Below, piece by piece: positions 29,550 to 39,897 of a stretch of DNA of 64,000 nucleotides. Every line of letters begins with the position of its first letter. Positions within the stretch are counted from its first letter, which is position 1. Below the pieces are notes generated by a model. That model was given only the letters and a program-made list of their open reading frames with translations. It ran no database searches and was not told the DNA's origin. A program made the translations under genes and the position numbers. Origin of the DNA: Litoreibacter ascidiaceicola (lineage in GTDB: Bacteria > Pseudomonadota > Alphaproteobacteria > Rhodobacterales > Rhodobacteraceae); NCBI RefSeq assembly GCF_900129235.1, contig NZ_FQUV01000006.1:1-64000 (forward strand). The letters are read 5' to 3'.

Positions 29550-30179
29550 ATGGTACGCGCCAGATCCCAAGTGGATCCGCTGCCCGCCGCCGGCACCGGC
29601 ATGGGCCTCAGCGAGATGCCCGTCACGGATTTTATCAAGCTGACCAGCTGGCCGTCGATCGACCTGATCCCGTCTTGCGCCAACGCTGCCTTCGTCGAAT
29701 TTGCCTCCGCGCAGTACCGCCACCTCAACTCCGAATGGTCATTCTTTGCCGCCGACGTGCTCTTTATCCCCTCGGGTCCCGGCTACTGGGGATACGATTC
29801 CACCACCAGCTTCATCAGCCAGCTGTCGGAAGCCATCGAAGATTTGGACCGCTTCAAGGGGCAGACGCCGGGAAATACGGGGGGCGACAAGGCCTTCCTC
29901 GACCTCAAATTCCTGCCGACCCGGTTCGAGCCGAACACCGATCTGCACCGTGCGATGCAGTCAGCATTTGGTCAGGTTTTTAAGTCACATGTTGCCGAAC
30001 ACCCGATCGAGATGACCCGCGCGGTCGAACAATCTGGCCGCTTCCTGTCATCGGTCAATGAGATCGATTAACGGCAGATAACACGCGAAACATGGCGTCG
30101 CGCAAGCGCCTCTTTTGATCGGGCTTACGAAGAATTCAGGGATACGCTCACCGTGACCTGGGACAAGATGGAGGACTGA
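29550..30179 (+). pseudogene. parA: ParA-type plasmid partition ATPase, broken
   Basis: The readable part matches the ParA/RepA partition ATPase of alphaproteobacterial replicons: LTSWPSIDLIPSCAN, FIPSGPGYWGYDSTTSF, FLPTRFEPNTDLHRAM and HPIEMTRAVEQSGRFLSS. Three lesions are visible. The N-terminal half with the Walker A loop is absent. About 40 residues including the Walker B region are missing between LNSEWSFFAA and DVLFIPSG. The codon after SSVNEID is TAA at 30069-30071, where family members carry tyrosine. Beyond that stop the same frame continues with the family's C-terminus (RQITRETWRRASASFD) to the TGA at 30177-30179. It cannot make a functional ATPase. Confidence 0.85.
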
Positions 30180-30183
30180 ATAG

Positions 30184-31290
30184 ATGGTTAAGAAGCGCAG
30201 CGTTTTCGACATCAATTTCGAAGAAACGGACGGCTCCGACGCCGAAAGGTTCCCCGCGGGGAACCCGGAGCTGGAGAAAAAGTCGTTCAACGTGCAAGGC
30301 CACCCGTTGCAAAACGAAGCCGCCCCCTCGCGTCGCGGCCCCATGGCCAGCGCCATCACCGAAGCGGCGGATGCCACGTCGGAACGCGTCAGCGCCGAAG
30401 CCGCCATCCGCGCCGAGAATGACGCCCTTGCGCATGAGCATGTGCGGCTGAAGAAACTGGGTTTGATCACCGATTTGATTGAGACTTCATCGGTTGTGAT
30501 CACAAAGTTGACACGCGACCGTTCCGCGAATACAGACCCTGAATTGCAAGAGTTGAAAGACTCTATACAGGCGATAGGGCTCTCAAACCCGATACGCGTG
30601 GAGCAGACCGGAACCGGCTTCGAGCTGATCCAGGGCTACCGTCGTCTGGCCGCCTTCAGGGAGCTGGCAGAAGAAACCGGCGACGCGCGCTACACCAAAA
30701 TTCCCGCCGCGTTGGTTCCCCGCGGGGAACCTTTGGCCGCGCTGTATCGCAAGATGGTCGACGAAAATCTGGTGCGTAAAGACATCTCGTTCGGCGAGAT
30801 GGCCCAGCTTGCGTTGTCCTATGCCGAGAATGAGGACATTGAGCCGGGCGAGGCGGTGAAGGTGCTTTATGCCTCCGCGCTCAAGCAAAAGCGCCGCTAT
30901 ATTCGCCAGTTCACCCGCGTGCTGCACGTTCTGGGCGATGCGCTACGCTATCCCGAGCTGCTGCCACGGGCCTTGGGGATCGAGCTTTTCAAGCTGTTCG
31001 AGGCGGAAGAAGATCGCGGCGTCCAGATCGCCGCCGCTCTGCACGCGGTTCCTGATCGCGATGGCGAGGCCGAGGCTAAAATCCTGCGCGATGCGCTGGC
31101 CAAGCCGAAAGAGCAGCCCGCGCCGAAATCAGTCTCCAAAACCTCCCTGCGTCTGGCCAGACCGGAAGGGGAGGCGCGGGTGATCGCTCAGAACGGCAAG
31201 GTGGAATTGCGCCTGCCAAGGGATTTCTCGGCGGTCAGCCGCGAAAAGTTGCAGGACGCAATCGAGGCGTTTCTAACCTCACTCGACTAG
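30184..31290 (+). CDS. parB: ParB-family partition/centromere-binding protein
   Basis: A 368-residue ParB/RepB-type protein, apparently intact. The ParB nuclease-like domain is seen in LQELKDSIQAIGLSNPIRV and LIQGYRRLAAFRELAEE (residues about 120-165). A helix-turn-helix region follows (ENLVRKDISFGEMAQLALSY, about 195-220). Its start lies 4 bases after the parA stop, the usual parAB operon. Two of three identical 18-bp palindromes (probable parS sites) lie inside this coding sequence. With parA broken, it may persist as an incompatibility or silencing factor, or act with a ParA from elsewhere in the genome. Confidence 0.9.
   Translation: MVKKRSVFDINFEETDGSDAERFPAGNPELEKKSFNVQGHPLQNEAAPSRRGPMASAITEAADATSERVSAEAAIRAENDALAHEHVRLKKLGLITDLIETSSVVITKLTRDRSANTDPELQELKDSIQAIGLSNPIRVEQTGTGFELIQGYRRLAAFRELAEETGDARYTKIPAALVPRGEPLAALYRKMVDENLVRKDISFGEMAQLALSYAENEDIEPGEAVKVLYASALKQKRRYIRQFTRVLHVLGDALRYPELLPRALGIELFKLFEAEEDRGVQIAAALHAVPDRDGEAEAKILRDALAKPKEQPAPKSVSKTSLRLARPEGEARVIAQNGKVELRLPRDFSAVSREKLQDAIEAFLTSLD
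30248..30265. repeat. parS-like palindrome, copy 1 (inside parB)
   Basis: A perfect 18-bp palindrome, GGTTCCCCGCGGGGAACC. It fits the repABC centromere pattern GTT-N4-GC-N4-AAC and is one of three identical copies within 1.1 kb. It lies in the 5' part of parB and is translated, so the site and the protein sequence are co-selected. Confidence 0.75.
30714..30731. repeat. parS-like palindrome, copy 2 (inside parB)
   Basis: Identical to the copies at 30248 and 31317. It lies in mid-parB, where it is read in a frame encoding VPRGEP. Confidence 0.75.
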
Positions 31291-31303
31291 GTTTTCCTGA
31301 AAA

Positions 31304-31993
31304 TCACCCCCCAAAAGGTTCCCCGCGGGGAACCTTTTTTGCATTTACAGCCCGATCAGGGCGACGACAGGGGCGGTTGATCACGACCATGTCGCGCTCG
31401 GAGATGGCGAGGACCATCTCCATAGCGGCGGCCAATTGCCTGGCTTGTTCTTCAATAAGGTCGTCGATGGCTTTGCGGGCAGGGCCGCGCTCCTGGCCGA
31501 AGTGGGCGACCGCAGCGCGCTCCATGTCGCGCAAACGGGTGCGCAGGGCAGGGGTCAGGCGCGGGTAGCCAAGGTCGTGAATAAATCAGGCCATGACAGC
31601 GGGCGTGATCTCGTCCGTCATCTCCGCGGTGCCGATGTCGAAAGACAGCTGGTGCGTCAGCTGAGCGTCGGTCAGTACCGGCATTTCGGTGCGGAGGCGT
31701 GCCATCATCCCCATCACAGATGCTCGTCCTGCACCACCCGCATCTGCGACGGGCGCGGCAATTTCAGAATGTGGGTCGTCGGCGCGTTCAAACCCGACTT
31801 AGGCAGTGCGAAGCGACCGTCGGACATGCGGGCCAGCGCCACCTTGCCTTGCACACCCGCAAGTGGGGAGGGACAGCGAGACAGGACGCGCGGGCGCGTC
31901 ATCCAAATAGCGAAAGCCGGTCGTGCCGCTGTCGTCGCGTGTCAGGCGACCAACAGGGGCAGGGGAGCCGTCAAGGAAGACATCCAGTTACAT
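31304..31993 (-). pseudogene. HipA-type toxin kinase, decayed
   Basis: Fragments of a HipA serine/threonine kinase can be read leftward: LDVFLDGSPAPVGRLTRDD near the start, then after a frameshift near 31870 KVALARMSDGRFALPKSG and APTTHILKLP (the family's ATP-lid region). After a gap come FDIGTAEMTDEITPAVMA and FIHDLGYPRLTPALRTRLRD from the C-terminus. The second codon is TAA, another stop falls at 31714, another follows PAVMA, and the catalytic core is missing. The gene is dead. It follows hipB by 2 bases, the normal hipBA layout. Confidence 0.72.
31317..31334. repeat. parS-like palindrome, copy 3, downstream of parB
   Basis: Identical 18-bp palindrome 26 bases past the parB stop. The symmetry extends to 26 bp with flanking A4 and T4, and six T residues follow on the plus strand (31335-31340 partly), so it could also serve as a transcription terminator for parB. 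Confidence 0.75.
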
Positions 31994-31995
31994 AG

Positions 31996-32214
31996 TCAAA
32001 TCCCGACTGTCAGGCGCAGGCCAATATCTTGGCACAGTTGCAACACCAAGCCGATGCGAGCGGTGTCCTTGCCGTTTTCGATCGCGCTGACGATTGGCAA
32101 CGATACACCGCTTTGCATCGCCAGATCGCTTTGCTGCAGCCCAAGCGCCCGCCTGCGCGCTCGGATCGCTTTGCCAAGGGTAGCGGGGTCGGTGATGATG
32201 TGCGGCTAAGACAT
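31996..32214 (-). pseudogene. HipB-like Xre-family antitoxin with a stop at codon 3
   Basis: The frame encodes a 70-residue Cro/C1-type helix-turn-helix (LGKAIRARRRALGLQQSDLA, then SGVSLPIVSAIENGKDTAR). This is typical of HipB antitoxins that repress their own operon and neutralise HipA. Codon 3 is TAG and no good alternative start follows, so it is probably not translated. It lies just upstream of the decayed hipA. Confidence 0.72.
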
Positions 32215-32316
32215 GGTAAATTTCAATGATCGTTGATGTTCATCCGGATATGGGAGTATCTCGTCAAAATGTCATTGATCGTTTATAAAATGAGCAGGGT
32301 GGTTCGCTGTATTAGA

Positions 32317-33024
32317 CTATTGCTCGGCAGTGACCACAGAGGCGCAGGCGGGGATACTCCACCCCACTGATACCAAACAGACAAACGCACGCGCGCCGAC
32401 TGTTAGCGCTGTCGCACCCAAAATATCCGGCGCTGGTGCGAGCGCATCCAAACCGCTGGTACAAGCCTTTTGCAAGGTGGGATCACCGGCAAAAGAGGTG
32501 CAGTCCTCGACGACCTCGAAATGCTTGTTCCTATAGGCTTCGAGCTGTCCGGCAGTGGCTTCTCCAGTGCTTACAGCGTCGGGTTTGATGGGGGGGACGG
32601 GCATTTCACTTGTGCTCTCTTGCAGCCGCTCCTGAACGACCTCCGCAAGCTTTCTTGCGTTCGAAAAGGTGAACCCTTCGGCGGTGAAATCCGGACAGTC
32701 GATGTTCCAGTGATCCTTGATCGCGCAGCCCGCAACGTCCTGTTTCGCGGTGTTCAGCAGGACGTCACCCACCCCTGACAGCGTCTCGAAATGGCAAGCT
32801 GTGCCCTCACTGCCGTCAGGCAGTTCAACGAAAGGGCAGCTTACAAATGTCATCTCCGATTTGCTTGCGGATAGGGGAAAAACGTAAATTTCATCAATGC
32901 CGCCCGGTGTGGCGCGAAATAGGCCACGGTCGATTTCGGGCGGTAGGGGTGATTTCTGGGCAAGTGAGATTGTGCCGAAACATGTCATGATCACGACAAG
33001 CAAGAGACCCCTAAACCTTGTCAT
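32317..33024 (-). CDS. Exported protein following the amidase, candidate immunity protein
   Basis: A 235-residue protein without a family I recognise. Residues 1-22 are a Sec signal peptide (RFRGLLLVVIMTCFGTISLAQ). The mature chain has six or more cysteines (SCPFVEL, TACHFETL, AGCAIKDHWNIDCPDF, EDCTSF, KACTSG), suggesting disulfides in the periplasm. A late hydrophobic stretch (ALTVGARAFVCLVSVGWSIPACASVV) may be a membrane anchor or a buried helix. The gene starts 1 base after the amidase stop. A periplasmic partner co-expressed with a peptidoglycan amidase is what an immunity protein looks like; this role is inferred. Confidence 0.6.
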   Translation of the reverse strand: MTRFRGLLLVVIMTCFGTISLAQKSPLPPEIDRGLFRATPGGIDEIYVFPLSASKSEMTFVSCPFVELPDGSEGTACHFETLSGVGDVLLNTAKQDVAGCAIKDHWNIDCPDFTAEGFTFSNARKLAEVVQERLQESTSEMPVPPIKPDAVSTGEATAGQLEAYRNKHFEVVEDCTSFAGDPTLQKACTSGLDALAPAPDILGATALTVGARAFVCLVSVGWSIPACASVVTAEQ

Positions 33025-33025
33025 C

Positions 33026-34405
33026 CTAGCAAATCCTTTGATTGATGTTGGCCAGCAGGCTGATCGCTATGGATTCGGCGGCCTTGTCATACATGTCATG
33101 ACCGGCTGCTAGATCCGGCATGTCGCGTCGTAGATTGGCCGCCTTCCAAGCCGCCAATTCTGCGCCGCCAGCGGGTTTTGCGGGTATTCCCCACCGCGTG
33201 CGGCTTGTGCCGATTTCCGCGTTGTAAGCGGCGGTATTCCAAAGCCTGTCACCGGATTCGACATTGATGAAATCGGCCTCCAGATAGATCGGAATCACCT
33301 GCTTTTTTGCCGGATCCGTCGAGCCCAGATTTATCGGCGAGATGTTTGCAAGCCTGCGCGCATTTTCACCCTGCTCGGTGACGGTGTCGGTCGAGTTTTC
33401 GGCAGCTTGCAATGTGGCTGCAAGATGCGTCCTGATGGCGGTCCCGACCGAGCGCGCACGCGACACGGTGTCGGCTGGTGAATTCGCGTGGCCGCTGTAA
33501 AGGATCAAAGGCCCGCGCGATCCGGAAGATGAGGATGCCGATTTGGGATAAACGCCACCCAGAAGGCCCGCATCCAGCGTGGTGATGTTTACGCCACGAG
33601 AGCTGTCGACGATGCCGGAGACTTTCGTGATATCAAGCTGCACATGCGCGTTAGTGGTTTCTGCGTTGAAGTGGCAGCAAAAGAAGAAATCAGCCGATTT
33701 GTCCCGTGCGACCGCCGCGCGGTCCGCACCTGTCATGTTTACAAATTCATCCGTTTTGGTGAGGTGAACCTCGATCGCGTCCAAATAGGGAAGCTTGTCG
33801 ACGATCTCGCCTTTCAAGGCATCTATCTTGTCGCGCACCAGCGGGATCAACCGATGCGTCATGGTTTTTTCCAGCGTGTTGGTAATCGCCCCCAACGCAT
33901 TGTTCCATGACGACGAGGTCACGTCGAACATTGCGTTGTAATCGGCCTGGCTCATGGTGCCGGCGGCGACAGCGTCCTGATAGGGTTTGAGCCGCGAGGC
34001 GTTGGCAAGCCTGGCTTGCGCACCGCGGCCACCATGACCGGGATCCAGCACGAATATGATTGTAGCAGAACAGTTTGCAGTGGCAGAGACGCCGCCGCCG
34101 GGCTGCGCCGTTGCGGCGGCCTGCGCTTGCGCGCCTTGTTGGGAGGCCGCCTGTGGGTCACCGCCCAATCCGCCGCTGATTTCGTCGACCTCGCCTTGGC
34201 AGCTATGCTCCATCTCCTCGGGGACGATCACCGTGTCACCGGGCTGAAGGCCGCCGGGCAGGGTTTCGCTGCCCAGATCATAGACCCGTCCGTTCCGGTC
34301 CACATCCAACGCCTGCCAGTTCGAGCCACCCCCCGGTATCCCGCAGTTCTGGGCGATGGACCAAAGGCTGTCATTTTGAGCAACGGGAAGTCGTGTGTCA
34401 GCCAT
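33026..34405 (-). CDS. LysM-type domain plus N-acetylmuramoyl-L-alanine amidase (Amidase_3), no signal peptide
   Basis: A 459-residue zinc amidase that would cut the bond between muramic acid and the stem peptide. Start at 34405 (MADTRLPVAQNDSLWS) is preferred because the longer frame lacks protein-like composition and this ATG overlaps the upstream stop. Residues 1-65 form a LysM-like module. An Ala/Gln linker (95-125) leads to Amidase_3 motifs: VLDPGHGGRG (zinc His), HLTKTDEF with RAAVARDKSADFFFCCHFNAE (zinc His) and IPIYLEADFINVESGDRL (catalytic/zinc Glu). An 80-residue insert follows the first motif. There is no signal peptide although the target is periplasmic, so export by another route, such as type VI secretion, is likely. 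Confidence 0.78.
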   Translation of the reverse strand: MADTRLPVAQNDSLWSIAQNCGIPGGGSNWQALDVDRNGRVYDLGSETLPGGLQPGDTVIVPEEMEHSCQGEVDEISGGLGGDPQAASQQGAQAQAAATAQPGGGVSATANCSATIIFVLDPGHGGRGAQARLANASRLKPYQDAVAAGTMSQADYNAMFDVTSSSWNNALGAITNTLEKTMTHRLIPLVRDKIDALKGEIVDKLPYLDAIEVHLTKTDEFVNMTGADRAAVARDKSADFFFCCHFNAETTNAHVQLDITKVSGIVDSSRGVNITTLDAGLLGGVYPKSASSSSGSRGPLILYSGHANSPADTVSRARSVGTAIRTHLAATLQAAENSTDTVTEQGENARRLANISPINLGSTDPAKKQVIPIYLEADFINVESGDRLWNTAAYNAEIGTSRTRWGIPAKPAGGAELAAWKAANLRRDMPDLAAGHDMYDKAAESIAISLLANINQRIC

Positions 34406-35093
34406 CCAAAATATCCCCAATATGTGACAACCCGTCTTTCGCCAGCGCCTCCGGCACCCATGCGAAAAGCGGATTACGGTCGAAAGAAAAGCCAAGGTGA
34501 TAGGTGCAGATCAACCAGTCCACGACAAAGTCGTGCCGTGTCAGGTCTTGGCGGGTCAAGTGCGAAGAATACTGCTCCAAGCTGCTGCGGACGTGGTCCG
34601 CTCCAAGCGCCTCGATCCGTTTCGGGTTCGTCTTGGCGCAGATTTCGAAGGCGGCATGAACTGCGCTGTGCGGGCGGCTTTGCCGCGTCGTTTTGCAGGC
34701 TGCGCCAAACCCGGGGGCGACGCCGTCAGTTGCCGCGCACAGACCTTCGGCGATCATCAGATCCGTGCTCCGAAACATTCGGTTCAAGCCGACATTCGGG
34801 TGGACGCCGGAATGCCCCCACAGCATCGACTGCCTGACAGGCTGGTACAGGGGGTCGGTGCGGAAAGACGCGCCCAAATGCAGAGCAAGAAAGGCGTATT
34901 TTACAATTTCGCCGCGAAGTTCGAACCCGGATGTTTCAGACTGTACCGTCGCGAGCCGAAAGAAGCGGGTGACCTCCGAGGTCCCGCAAATCGCACCGAC
35001 TTTCCGAACGGACTCGCGAAATATATACGCAAGATCATTGGCATGGGTGATCTCGAACGAGTGTTGCAGAGCCGACGTATTGATGCTGACCAA
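34398..35093 (-). CDS. Unknown 231-residue protein with two LG-x2-F-x2-DP-type repeats
   Basis: I do not recognise a named family. Two similar helical blocks occur: IVKYAFLALHLGASFRTDPLYQ near 65-86 and VVDWLICTYHLGFSFDRNPLFA near 185-206. A related block occurs in the C-terminus of the DUF4123-like protein on the opposite strand. No signal peptide is present. It is the first gene of the leftward arm, overlapping the amidase start by 8 bases. Position suggests a chaperone or adaptor for the amidase, or part of its delivery. Confidence 0.6.
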   Translation of the reverse strand: MVSINTSALQHSFEITHANDLAYIFRESVRKVGAICGTSEVTRFFRLATVQSETSGFELRGEIVKYAFLALHLGASFRTDPLYQPVRQSMLWGHSGVHPNVGLNRMFRSTDLMIAEGLCAATDGVAPGFGAACKTTRQSRPHSAVHAAFEICAKTNPKRIEALGADHVRSSLEQYSSHLTRQDLTRHDFVVDWLICTYHLGFSFDRNPLFAWVPEALAKDGLSHIGDILDG

Positions 35094-35346
35094 AAGGACA
35101 CCCTCAGGTTCGGAAAAAGGAAATGACCGTGCGCGTCACGGGATCGCAAATGGCGGATTCAAATTAGGCCTTATGTCGATGAACCTAACGACACATGAGG
35201 GGGCTGACAAGATTTCGCCGGCGCGGATGGTGAACTGCAAGGACTTTATATATATCGGCCCTTTAAGTGATGGCGACGACGCAAAAACCTGAGGGGTTAC
35301 TGTCCGACATGGAAACAAAAGGTGTCGTCAGGGCCGGTGGCTTGTG
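35094..35346. promoter_or_regulatory. Divergent promoter region of the putative effector island
   Basis: This 253-base region separates the leftward 231-aa/amidase/partner genes from the rightward DUF4123-like operon. It includes an AT-rich core (CTTTATATATATCGG at 35243-35257). A short open frame of 39 codons runs through it (35173-35292), but I see no support for it as a gene. Both arms could be fired together from here. Confidence 0.45.
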
Positions 35347-36735
35347 ATGAACAAGGTTGACGACCCGTGGATCGGCGAAGTCGCCGACGGCCCGAATGCG
35401 CCCTTGCAGCGCGTGTCCGCGTTGATCCGCGAGGATGTCGAAGGCGTTGTACCGCTCGACACCCAATTTGGCGTGCGCGAAAAACGGTGCGTTCCCGACG
35501 TTTTGAGAAAGCCGATGTTCGAAGGTGGGGCAGGGGCGCCTTATGTGCTACTGGACGGCGCGCGGTTGCCGGGATGCCGCGAGATGCTGGAGGCCGCCGA
35601 CGCGCCGCACCGCTGCCTTTACAGAGGTGAAGCCTACGACGCGCTTGCCGACGAGGCCCCTTGGGTGGCCGAGCTGACCCCTGACGGATCGTTGACCCGC
35701 GCGCTGTTCACCCGCGGTCCCGCGCCATGGCATATGTGGGATCAGGGCCCGCATCTGATTTTGCGCGGGCAGGGGGGTATCGACGGGATGTGGCGTCACC
35801 TGCGCCGGTTCAACCGTGCGCAGGACGAGGCCGGAAAATGGTTTTACCTGCGCTACTGGGAACCCAGTGTTGTCGGGGCCTATTTCACGCAACTGGCGGA
35901 TATCGAAGACCGGCGGCAGGCATGGTTCCGCGCCGATGGGGCATCGGATATCCATATCACGCGGCCCGCGCAGGATGCCGTGACCACCCTGCGGTTGTCC
36001 GCGCCCGAGCCTGTGCGCAGCACGGCCCTTCGAACGCGCCTTTTGCCGCAGGACAGGGTCGTTTTCGGTCATAGCCGGGAGGCCGCGTTCTTTGTGGCGC
36101 TTGGCGCGGGCATGGCGTCGCGCAATGCCGGCACAGTTCCCCTTGGGCTGACAGCTGCACCTGATCACCGCGACTGGACCGCACTAGCACGCGCGGTGGC
36201 GCGTCATGCAAAACCGTTGGGCATCGTCACCCAGCAAGGGCTGGCGAAACTGACCGCGCTGTCCGCCTCGCTTGGGCTGGCCTTCTGGGAGGACCTGCGG
36301 TTCGACCTCAAGCTACGCCAGACCATTGCCACCAAATCCGCATCCGAAGCGGAGCGGTTGAGCGCTGCGCGCGACCTTTACGACAAGACCGATGTGGAAA
36401 CCGGCACGCTGGACGCGGTGCTGGAGCTGATGGCGCGCAAACTAACCTATGGCGCGCCGGATACGCTGCGCCACGTAGCGCCAAAGACGCTTGGGGTGAT
36501 GAGCGATTCCGAGCTCAATGCGTTCGCCATCACGATCCTGCGCTTTGACGCGGATATCGAAAGCCGCCCGATCGAAATCCAGCGGATTGCCATTGCGTTG
36601 GGGGCCGCACTTGGGGTGGCGTGGCTGGACAATCCATTCTATCATTCCTTGAAAGCGGCCCTTTTGTCGGATGGTGATCCATCTGAACAGGTGCGCGCAT
36701 ATCTGAGCCACCCTGACCGCGAGACCGCACCATGA
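35347..36735 (+). CDS. DUF4123-like protein, probable type VI effector adaptor
   Basis: About 462 residues. The segment from YVLLDGARLPGCREML (near 62) through LYRGEAYDALADEAPWVAEL, the FTR..APWHMWDQGPHLIL block and GMWRHLRRFNRAQDEAGKWFYLRYWEPSVVGAYF matches the DUF4123 pattern. DUF4123 proteins are known adaptors (TEC/Tap) that load cargo onto VgrG tips. The C-terminal 160 residues carry helical repeats ending IALGAALGVAWLDNPFYHSL, related to the 231-residue protein opposite. An ATG at 35347 is chosen over the GTG one codon earlier. The next gene overlaps its stop (ATGA). No VgrG, Hcp or sheath gene is in the window. Confidence 0.72.
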   Translation: MNKVDDPWIGEVADGPNAPLQRVSALIREDVEGVVPLDTQFGVREKRCVPDVLRKPMFEGGAGAPYVLLDGARLPGCREMLEAADAPHRCLYRGEAYDALADEAPWVAELTPDGSLTRALFTRGPAPWHMWDQGPHLILRGQGGIDGMWRHLRRFNRAQDEAGKWFYLRYWEPSVVGAYFTQLADIEDRRQAWFRADGASDIHITRPAQDAVTTLRLSAPEPVRSTALRTRLLPQDRVVFGHSREAAFFVALGAGMASRNAGTVPLGLTAAPDHRDWTALARAVARHAKPLGIVTQQGLAKLTALSASLGLAFWEDLRFDLKLRQTIATKSASEAERLSAARDLYDKTDVETGTLDAVLELMARKLTYGAPDTLRHVAPKTLGVMSDSELNAFAITILRFDADIESRPIEIQRIAIALGAALGVAWLDNPFYHSLKAALLSDGDPSEQVRAYLSHPDRETAP

Positions 36736-37829
36736 ACATCCGCAGCAGCTGGACCTTCGCCGAAGGCTTTCCACAGGCCCCACCCTCCACTGCGTGCGAA
36801 AACTGCCACGATTGCATTCCTTTTTACGAGGCGACTGCGTCCCGCGTGATCCGTGCGCTGCAACTGCCCGTCGATGATGAATTGACCGCCGATCTGGGCG
36901 ACCGGTATCCGATGCTGCGCTACATCAATGCGCTGCCCGCTATGCAAATCCGGCGCTACTACGCGCAACTCGACCGCATCGCGCGGATTTCGGGGCTGTA
37001 TGCGGCGGGTTTCAGATGGCTGGAAAGCCTTGGGGTGCAGATCCCTTTCGTAGGCGCTGCCGCCTTTGCCTCGAACGTGGTGCGGTGGGAGGTCGCGGAC
37101 CTAGTGCACGGCTACGGCAATGTCGTCTACGAGCAGGAACGGCGCGGGATGAACACCACCGGCCGCCACGATCTGAACGCCATCACGGGTGTCATGAACA
37201 AGCTGATCGCAGGCAATGCGGTCGTGTTTGTCGAGATTTACGCAATTTTCGATTTTTGCGTCCGCCATTTCAAAACCTACGGGCGGCCACGCTCCGACGC
37301 GCAGCTTGCCGAGTTCGAAATCTGTTTGGAGAATTTCATAACCTGGTGGGACGAGGTGCAGCCCGGCAACCGCATGTTCCCACAGCTGCGCAATATTCAG
37401 GTGGACCGTGACGGGCTTATCAAGGACGGCATCATGGCCTCCCTGCGCGCGGATAGCGGGGAGGCGCGGCGACAGGCCAGCACCGGCCTGATCCTGTATA
37501 ACGAGCAGAATTACACGCTTCAGGAATATATGTATGACCTGATCGACAACGACATCTTCGGAATTATCCCCTTCGACCCCGCTGAAATCGGCCTGCTTCT
37601 CAGGGGCTACCGAGCGGCGGCGAAGTTTTCCTATGACAAGGATGCGCAGATTGCCGACCGCTTTATCGTGACCTATGACAGCCCCGGCTGGCTGACGGAG
37701 GCTGGCGACCGCTACCCCTACACGGTGCAGGTTGTCTCGCGGTTTGACGAGTTGTATTTCGAAGGTGGCGACAGGCGGTATCTGGGTGCAGAGCACAGCA
37801 GGATGGCAGCGGATGCGCGTGGGTTCTAG
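36732..37829 (+). CDS. Unknown 365-residue protein, candidate secreted cargo
   Basis: No family recognised. The N-terminus has a cysteine cluster, CENCHDC (Cys22, Cys25, Cys28), which could bind a metal. There is no signal peptide. A moderately hydrophobic stretch (LGVQIPFVGAAAFASNVV, about 97-115) and another near 150-170 (NAVVFVEIYAIFDFCVRHF) could be membrane-active helices. It starts inside the stop of the DUF4123-like gene and overlaps the following exported-protein gene by 17 bases. DUF4123 genes usually precede the effector they load, so this is the best candidate for that cargo. The activity is unknown. Confidence 0.55.
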   Translation: MNIRSSWTFAEGFPQAPPSTACENCHDCIPFYEATASRVIRALQLPVDDELTADLGDRYPMLRYINALPAMQIRRYYAQLDRIARISGLYAAGFRWLESLGVQIPFVGAAAFASNVVRWEVADLVHGYGNVVYEQERRGMNTTGRHDLNAITGVMNKLIAGNAVVFVEIYAIFDFCVRHFKTYGRPRSDAQLAEFEICLENFITWWDEVQPGNRMFPQLRNIQVDRDGLIKDGIMASLRADSGEARRQASTGLILYNEQNYTLQEYMYDLIDNDIFGIIPFDPAEIGLLLRGYRAAAKFSYDKDAQIADRFIVTYDSPGWLTEAGDRYPYTVQVVSRFDELYFEGGDRRYLGAEHSRMAADARGF

Positions 37830-38583
37830 ATTTGTCGCGGGTGTTGCGGCGCTGGCCCTTGGCGGGCTGGCGGTGCTGGCGATGGCCCAGACCCCGCAGC
37901 CGACGTTGGACTTTGCGCCCTACGCCAACATGCACGCGATGCAGCAGGGCAGCAGCCTTGATCTGGGCTTCCTTCCGGACGAGGTCCATCCCGGCTTCGG
38001 CGGTGAAGGTGTCGGGGTCGATATTGCGTTCAGCAACGATGATCTGCACCTCACCTGCCCCGATGGCGCGTACCGGATAGCCCTGTCAGATGGCCTTCTG
38101 GTGCGTGCGGACTTGTTCTGCCCGACGGACCAGACAGACCATGCCGACGTCGAGGCCCGATTGCTGGCGTCGGGCTTTGCGCGGGTGAAGGACTTCACCC
38201 AGGACAAGCGCCGTCCCGACGCATGGGGCCGCACCGTGGCCGACGCTTTCGAGGCCCTTCCGGAAGAACAGGGCGGCACAGTGGCGCGTATCATCTTGTC
38301 GCGATGGGAGCGCCCGGACGGCCATTCAGTGAGCCTTTCGGCGGCCTATTATGCCCCCGCCGGACGCACCCGGCCTATGTTGGAAATGGACATCTCGGCC
38401 CCCAAGACATGCCTGTTCCCGCTCTCGGTGTTTACAAAGTCGTCTGTCGGGGATGACAGCTGGACCAGCCCCCTTGTGGAACCCGTGCGCCCCATGTTCA
38501 ACGACGCACCATGGGAGTCTATCCCTCTCGAACAGCGCTATGAGCTTGCCGCGGAGGCCGCGAGGCAGCTTTGCTCCGGCTGA
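37813..38583 (+). CDS. Exported protein after the candidate cargo, possible immunity protein
   Basis: A 256-residue protein of no known family. The start at 37813 is preferred because it gives a clean signal peptide (RFVAGVAALALGGLAVLAMAQ). The mature part contains four cysteines (LTCPDG, LFCPTD, KTCLFP, QLCSG), so disulfides in the periplasm are likely. Translational overlap with the 365-residue gene mirrors the amidase/exported-partner pair on the other arm. Immunity against the 365-residue protein is an inference from layout only. Confidence 0.6.
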   Translation: MRVGSRFVAGVAALALGGLAVLAMAQTPQPTLDFAPYANMHAMQQGSSLDLGFLPDEVHPGFGGEGVGVDIAFSNDDLHLTCPDGAYRIALSDGLLVRADLFCPTDQTDHADVEARLLASGFARVKDFTQDKRRPDAWGRTVADAFEALPEEQGGTVARIILSRWERPDGHSVSLSAAYYAPAGRTRPMLEMDISAPKTCLFPLSVFTKSSVGDDSWTSPLVEPVRPMFNDAPWESIPLEQRYELAAEAARQLCSG

Positions 38584-38613: not shown

Positions 38614-38979
38614 CTAAGCTTCTATCTGAACAGCGATCTGTTCCGGTGACCAACCATTCTTCAGCATACCAAACGATTCTTTGCGCAAGCCCTCATACTT
38701 CTCTTTGATCAGCGACAGGGCATAATCACGCTTGGCATCGTGGATGCGAGCGATAGTTGAACTGCGTCTGGATGAACGTTTTTTTCACTACCCACTAGAT
38801 GAGATTCAAAGTGCGATTGAGGGCTTGTTGAGAGCTGCCCCTCGTCGATGTCCACGAGAGGTTGAGGTCGAGATTTTGAAACAGCGCCAAATACGGATCA
38901 GTCGTTTTCCGCGACCGGTGTTGCCAGATGGATCAATTGCTCGTGTAACTCGCAGTCAGGCAGCCAAAATCTTAGAAGA
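38614..38979. other. Gene debris between the island and the IS3 element
   Basis: Leftward from about 38735 to the stop at 38614-38616, a C-terminal scrap reads RDYALSLIKEKYEGLRKESFGMLKNGWSPEQIAVQIEA. It resembles the tail of Rpn/PD-(D/E)XK transposase-like proteins. Rightward from 38732 an open frame (LRLDERFFHYPLDEIQSAIEG) runs into the IS. Neither is a whole gene. The junction near 38735 looks like an old recombination point. Confidence 0.45.
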
Positions 38980-39013
38980 TGAGCAGCCCTACTTGAGTGG
39001 TCCAAATTTAGAA

Positions 39014-39589
39014 TTATTGCATGATTGGCTTTTGGTCCATCAGTACGATGGCCTCTGGCGCAGGTGGCCGATAGCCCAGAGCACTATGTGGTCGTTTGGT
39101 GTTGTAATGGTTCCTCCATCTTTCAGTGATGATTTAGGCCTCACGTCACGAGCAGAAGATTTCGCCGTTCAGTAACTCGTCGCGCATCCGCCCGTTGAAG
39201 CTCTCGCAATTTCCGTTCCCCCAGGGTGACCCGGGCTCAATGTAGGCGGTCTTTGCCCCAGCCGCCTTGATCCAGTCCCTGACGGCCTCGTCGATGAGCT
39301 CTGAGTCATTGTCCGACCTGATATAGGCAGGCACATCTCGCAGGATGAACAGGTCTGTCGGAGCGTCGAGAACCTCCGTCGAATTCAGCTTTCGTTTCAC
39401 TCGGATCGCAAGGCATTCTCGGCTGTGTTCATCCAAGATGTTGAGAGTTCTGAACGCCCTGCCATCGTCGGTTCGGTGGTGAACGAAGTCATACGACCAG
39501 ACATGGTTGCGATACTCTGGATGCAATCGGATGCATGACCCATCGTTCAGCCAGAGCCGCCGCTCGGAAGCCTTGAGCCGGCTGCGCAC
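39014..39589 (-). pseudogene. IS3-family transposase OrfB, truncated and with internal stops
   Basis: The integrase core is readable (NHVWSYDFVHHRTDDGRAF, AYIRSDNDSELIDEAV, AYIEPGSPWGNGNCESFN, LNGEIF). The N-terminal part of OrfB is deleted: RSRLKASERR joins directly to LWLNDGSCIRL. Near the C-terminus the frame meets TGA at 39146 and another stop soon after, yet the rest still reads WRNHYNTKRPHSALGYRPPA. The normal SDNGPEF has become SDNDSEL. It is inactive. Confidence 0.85.
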
Positions 39590-39621
39590 ATGATCGATGC
39601 AGGCCCGCCGGCGCGAGGGGC

Positions 39622-39897
39622 TTAGAAGTTTCCCGATGCGGCTTCCTTCAGGATCAATTTATCCAGCGTCAGGTCAGAAACCGCACGCCGAAGACGCTCG
39701 TTCTCTTTTTGTAGCCGCTTCAGTTCTTTGAGTTGTTCTGCGCCCATTCCACCGTACTTCTTCCAACGGTCGTAGGTTTGTTCGGTCACACTGATCTGCC
39801 GGTTCGCATCAATCCGAGGCACGCCTTGCCCCATCAGAGCTGCAACCCGCCGTAACTTCACGACAATCTCTTCAGGCTTGGGTCTCTTAATGGCCAT
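39622..39897 (-). CDS. IS3-family transposase OrfA
   Basis: A 91-residue helix-turn-helix protein with a leucine-zipper tail (LKELKRLQKENERLRRAVSDLTLDKLIL), the standard IS3 OrfA length and layout. It looks intact, but OrfB is broken, so no OrfAB transposase can be made from this copy. OrfA alone would at most repress transposition of related elements. Confidence 0.85.
   Translation of the reverse strand: MAIKRPKPEEIVVKLRRVAALMGQGVPRIDANRQISVTEQTYDRWKKYGGMGAEQLKELKRLQKENERLRRAVSDLTLDKLILKEAASGNF

Follow-up and report, generated by a model that had tools for sequence, protein, structure and literature searches.

LysM-fused peptidoglycan effectors of type VI secretion systems (T6SSs), DUF4123 adaptors, orphan effector islands, and plasmid-borne T6SSs are already known (PMC10673891, PMC11796386, PMC13098142, PMC9113992). 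BRPE67_05220 from Burkholderia sp. RPE67 is a LysM-NlpC/P60 T6SS effector whose LysM domain is required for VgrG binding (PMC10673891). Tae17 from Acinetobacter baumannii is a T6SS peptidoglycan effector that also contains LysM and an amidase domain (PMC11796386). In the Pseudomonas aeruginosa TecT/co-TecT/TseT module, a DUF4123 adaptor and a co-adaptor in a remote cluster are reported to be required for one effector (PMC6560169, PMC6684961). Effector-immunity modules encoded at a distance from the main T6SS and complete T6SSs on Rhodobacteraceae plasmids have also been reported. The published orphan islands are recognized by their hcp, vgrG, or PAAR genes and are presumed to supply a T6SS located at another site of the same genome (PMC13098142, PMC9113992).

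In this study, we analyzed a 64,000-nucleotide stretch of the Litoreibacter ascidiaceicola genome (positions 1 to 64,000 of contig NZ_FQUV01000006.1; hereafter, the window), which carries a gene for a LysM-Amidase_3 protein. The locus is probably a T6SS cargo-effector module that is orphan in this genome, with the T6SS of relatives being borne by a plasmid-like contig. The amidase gene (33026–34405, minus strand) encodes 459 amino acids, with its ATG at 34405, its last codon at 33029, and its stop at 33026–33028. The gene for its partner, an exported cysteine-rich protein of 235 amino acids, follows on the same strand (32317–33024; ATG at 33024, stop ending at 32317). A single base (33025) separates the amidase stop from the partner ATG, as the first-pass annotation had stated. 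That annotation overlooked the upstream gene at 34398–35093 (minus strand; 231 amino acids, TTG start), designated up and considered a candidate co-adaptor, and the divergent DUF4123 module at 35344–38583. Up and the start of the amidase gene have 8 bases in common, and the minus-strand trio consists of up, the amidase, and the partner, in that order. Downstream of the partner, a HipB-like helix-turn-helix antitoxin frame was recognized by eye (31998–32215, minus strand), with no evident HipA. PADLOC gave no match at the locus.

The amidase is composed of a LysM region (approximately residues 2–64), a linker (residues 66–113), and the amidase part (residues 115–459). In Pfam, Amidase_3 (PF01520) scored above the curated cut-off (28.1 vs. 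27 bits, E = 2.4e-6) and LysM (PF01476) below it (14.7 vs. 20.9 bits). The N-terminal 66 residues are the sole well-predicted stretch of the AlphaFold2 model (block pLDDT mostly 70–84), and the closest structures to the fold of residues 2–64 are LysM domains (4uz2, Z 5.0, 33% identity over 49 residues). Because the Pfam score is below the cut-off and the best fold match of the model is to LysM, the N-terminus is called LysM-like rather than a certain LysM member. The amidase core was modelled poorly (mean pLDDT 36). Residues H124, E179, H245, and E376 are invariant in a three-way alignment of the window amidase and two homologs. From the motifs DPGHGG, LEKTMTH, FFCxHF, and YLExD and what is established for Amidase_3, we assign them as the three zinc-binding residues of this family and its catalytic glutamate. 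The N-terminus is not hydrophobic (best 12-residue mean hydropathy of 0.5 within the first 50 residues). The first-pass annotation was therefore right that the enzyme keeps its zinc and catalytic residues and lacks a signal peptide. Its insert of 80 residues is real but differs in size: the two zinc histidines are 121 residues apart, which exceeds the spacing of 70 in the amidase structure 4rn7 (PDB) by approximately 50, and an Ala/Gln-rich linker of approximately 48 residues lies behind the LysM. There is also a conserved block near the C-terminus. Based on these features, the protein is a predicted peptidoglycan amidase effector.

The domain combination differs from those of the described enzymes. 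Housekeeping AmiA and AmiC belong to the same Amidase_3 family with the same catalytic residues and are exported via a signal peptide, whereas the window amidase has no signal and carries LysM and inserts; the NCBIfam AmiA/AmiC models match it only far below the cut-off. While the Tae1–4 effectors have an NlpC/P60 or CHAP-type cysteine peptidase domain, Pfam detected neither in the amidase and, besides Amidase_3 and the weak LysM, listed one insignificant family. BRPE67_05220 is similar in that LysM is joined to a peptidoglycan hydrolase with an adjacent immunity gene (PMC10673891). However, it is a cysteine NlpC/P60 enzyme from a vgrG locus, whereas the window encodes a zinc Amidase_3 with no vgrG nearby and with DUF4123 and an accessory gene instead. 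Tae17 has an Ig-like domain ahead of its LysM and a CHAP/Tae3-like cysteine amidase plus a lytic transglycosylase, and it docks to its own VgrG17 (PMC11796386). The LysM arrangement, which the first-pass annotation found unfamiliar, is thus only partly so, since peptidoglycan-cutting T6SS effectors with an N-terminal LysM have been published, but with NlpC/P60, lysozyme-like, or CHAP-type domains and not with Amidase_3 (PMC10673891, PMC11796386).

The partner is exported and cysteine-rich, in line with its first description. Its N-terminus is signal-like (best 12-residue mean hydropathy of 2.5), and both of its homologs are hydrophobic there too. It has nine cysteines, eight of which are kept in all three homologs of the alignment. 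The partner shows 43% and 31% identity to its homologs and diverges faster than the amidase, which is compatible with, although no proof of, an immunity protein. No match was found in Pfam, NCBIfam, PHROG, or PDB sequences; the AlphaFold2 model was poor (pLDDT 51), and Foldseek gave no significant match. The partner is predicted to be a periplasmic immunity protein.

The accessory protein up contains two copies of an LGxxFxxDPL motif, and a similar pair is common to most of its relatives. It belongs to no Pfam family, and its sequence profile had no PDB or Pfam match. Relatives of up sit between DUF4123 and other effectors. They were found on contig C13 of the same genome, ahead of a CHAP-like protein (L053), in the sister species G590 (L085), on plasmid pAMI4 of Paracoccus aminophilus, ahead of a protein with a HEYGH motif (L016), and at a contig end in G566 (L056). 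The position of up is similar to that of co-TecT, which acts as co-adaptor to the DUF4123 protein TecT (PMC6560169); on this positional analogy, up is a candidate co-adaptor. The TecT/co-TecT/TseT module is reportedly the work of Burkinshaw in 2018. It resembles the layout proposed here in its DUF4123 adaptor and, with up as the candidate, its co-adaptor; it includes a PAAR gene, whereas none was seen at the window module.

No DUF4123 gene is present on the amidase's own strand at the window locus. The DUF4123 adaptor (35344–36735, plus strand; 463 amino acids, Pfam E = 1.4e-19) is divergent from the amidase trio at a distance of 250 bases and is a member of the second module. It is followed by a putative second effector of no known family (36732–37829, plus strand; 365 amino acids) and by an exported protein (37813–38583, plus strand), the putative immunity protein of that effector, whose hydrophobic N-terminus was read from the sequence. 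The same trio is present in the T6SS-less genome G593, where the 365-residue middle protein is 87% identical and its neighbors approximately 53–54% (54% for the exported partner). Beyond this module, a short ORF of no known family (38732–39175, plus strand) lies beside two pieces that resemble an IS3-type transposase pair (39146–39897, minus strand).

Homologs of the amidase are few. A scan of 84,980 species genomes by DNA patterns found one relative, a full-length protein with 69% identity in a Paracoccus MAG, and a search of the genus found a second with 58% identity in G599. No further full-length relative is present in an order-wide sample of 391 genomes, and the LysM-Amidase_3 family therefore looks rare; a housekeeping AmiC was rejected. 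In both the Paracoccus MAG and G599, the genes are ordered DUF4123, up, amidase, and partner on one strand, with up of G599 apparently frameshifted close to its end. A chance ORF is ruled out by the conservation of the amidase and partner pair in these two other genomes. Both hosts possess a T6SS, as indicated by TssF and VgrG in the Paracoccus MAG and by VipB and Hcp in G599. The amidase module of G599 is located on an 853 kb contig, away from the VipB contig. PLSDB contained no plasmid copy of the amidase, up, the partner, or the second effector.

The L. ascidiaceicola assembly (3.74 Mb, 22 contigs, 99.98% complete) contains seven DUF4123 genes on five contigs, and no VipB, TssF, VgrG, or Hcp. 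The first-pass annotation had proposed a search for a T6SS cluster elsewhere in the genome and had named the lack of a secretion system as refuting its reading; the search found none of these four markers. The six further DUF4123 loci have mostly adaptor-effector-immunity layouts, including CHAP- and matrixin-type enzymes. Locus L053 on contig C13 (5908–8479) consists of DUF4123, an up-like protein, a CHAP-like effector, and an exported partner; in G590, the effector of this locus is 47% identical, and two immunity-like stretches are arranged in tandem. Locus L054 on contig C7 (7723–10670) consists of DUF4123, a matrixin-like (HELGHTLGLPDEY) protein, and a partner, and is syntenic in the T6SS-positive G591 and G592 and the T6SS-less G590. 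DUF4123 occurs in 11 of the 21 genomes from the genus, and four of these 11 (the window's genome, G219, G590, and G593) lack VipB and Hcp; G593 was assembled in only three contigs. In the family sample, VipB was present in 17/17 other genomes with DUF4123 over the cut-off vs. 71/295 overall (p approximately 6e-12, ignoring kinship). The proposed type VI effector-immunity bicistron is thus supported in that the pair is co-linear behind DUF4123 in two T6SS-positive genomes and DUF4123 tracks the T6SS in the family, but not in its own genome, where T6SS markers are absent. By context, the T6SS effector-immunity reading is strong, and formal membership fails at a T6SS in the same genome. Unlike the published orphan islands, the window modules have DUF4123 without hcp or vgrG and reside in a T6SS-less genome.

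The T6SSs of the relatives offer a clue to this absence. The T6SS of G591 is on a contig of 73,157 bases which, read whole, encodes VipA, VipB, TssF, TssM (IcmF), VgrG, three DUF4123 proteins, and RepA/RepB. The VipB contigs of G592, G596, and G599 are 66,262, 66,182, and 75,901 bases long, respectively, and G600 and G603 have a VipB on chromosome-sized contigs. From the contig sizes and replicon genes, we infer that the T6SS is largely a plasmid trait in this genus. The relatives suggest that the T6SS is located on a plasmid absent from the assembly, and this plasmid was presumably lost. In the best reading of these data, a T6SS carried by a plasmid has drawn on the chromosomal effector stock, at least until recently.

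A plasmid remnant is present beside the module. The RepA/ParA remnant (29574–30167, plus strand) is a C-terminal part only, which matches residues 214–446 of the 455-residue RepA on the G591 T6SS contig; residues 1–213 of that RepA have no match there. The following RepB/ParB partition protein (30184–31290, plus strand) is intact and 70% identical to Sulfitobacter and Pseudosulfitobacter plasmid copies. Three copies of the parS-like palindrome GGTTCCCCGCGGGGAACC, without strand assignment, are located within 30242–31334, and transposase-like pieces occur near the module. RepB, the truncated RepA, the palindromes, and the transposase-like pieces suggest, at the sequence level, that the region arrived with a plasmid, of whatever kind.

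The modules could also be decayed relics left after a permanent T6SS loss and functionless today, as the lack of T6SS genes in the window's genome, the truncated RepA with transposase-like pieces nearby, and a premature stop in one effector of G590 might indicate. We consider this unlikely because the amidase, partner, and accessory gene are all intact, and the modules common to the window's genome and G590, both T6SS-less, show dN/dS values of 0.07–0.16 (at dS of approximately 0.13–0.47), which indicate continued purifying selection and are near those of flanking control genes in the same comparison (0.02–0.10). These values cover adaptors, the accessory protein, effectors, and immunity proteins of other modules; the amidase was excluded, having no close enough orthologue. 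The CHAP effector of G590 is strongly different. The effectors have drifted less than expected if the T6SS had been lost since the common ancestor, suggesting that either the loss was recent in each species or plasmids repeatedly return.

It is very unlikely that the amidase is instead loaded into an extracellular contractile injection system (eCIS), a type of machine that has LysM proteins among its baseplate parts. Contig C7 does carry a sheath gene (PF04984) at 87 kb with Pvc16_N and baseplate spike genes, in an eCIS-like cluster at approximately 86–106 kb (L097/L098), and the sheath family is also present in G590, G593, and G591. However, the amidase module is on a different contig (C21), DUF4123 goes with the T6SS in the family sample, the published T6SS LysM domains differ from the eCIS ones, and G219 has seven DUF4123 genes, yet neither a PF04984 sheath nor VipB. 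Endolysins often combine LysM and Amidase_3 without signals, but a holin-released phage endolysin with a periplasmic inhibitor was rejected as scarcely credible despite a weak PHROG endolysin match (E = 0.0067), because no phage genes lie near the module, neither the 50,697 phage records nor the viral contigs contain a match to the amidase, and its conserved neighbors are DUF4123 and the gene for an exported partner.

We propose a pathway for the LysM-Amidase_3 protein as a T6SS effector. The amidase, without a signal peptide, would be made in the cytoplasm and handled by a DUF4123 adaptor, probably also by up. Its N-terminal LysM may dock it onto the VgrG/PAAR tip, from which it would be injected into a neighboring Gram-negative cell. 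There, the zinc amidase would cut the MurNAc-L-Ala bond of peptidoglycan. The exported cysteine-rich partner would wait in the periplasm of the producer and presumably block the amidase. More tentatively, and with less confidence than we place in the module assignment itself, ammunition and gun may be inherited apart: chromosomes would keep selected DUF4123 modules while a plasmid of approximately 70 kb brings or removes the T6SS, such that T6SS-less cells stay immune and become armed as soon as they receive the plasmid, with the LysM-Amidase_3 effector and the up family as new components.

No relevant paper on Amidase_3 with a T6SS was found in the literature searched, which comprised papers available without subscription. 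Within it, Amidase_3 as a T6SS catalytic domain, the recurrent up family, and repeated DUF4123 arsenals in T6SS-less genomes appear to be new. If the proposed reading is true, a zinc Amidase_3 would join the peptidoglycan weapons of the T6SS, and the locus would point to an accessory family recurring between DUF4123 adaptors and effectors. It would also be a natural case of effectors being passed on independently of their machine, making it testable whether orphan effector-immunity modules persist because they protect, because they allow re-arming, or are merely decaying.
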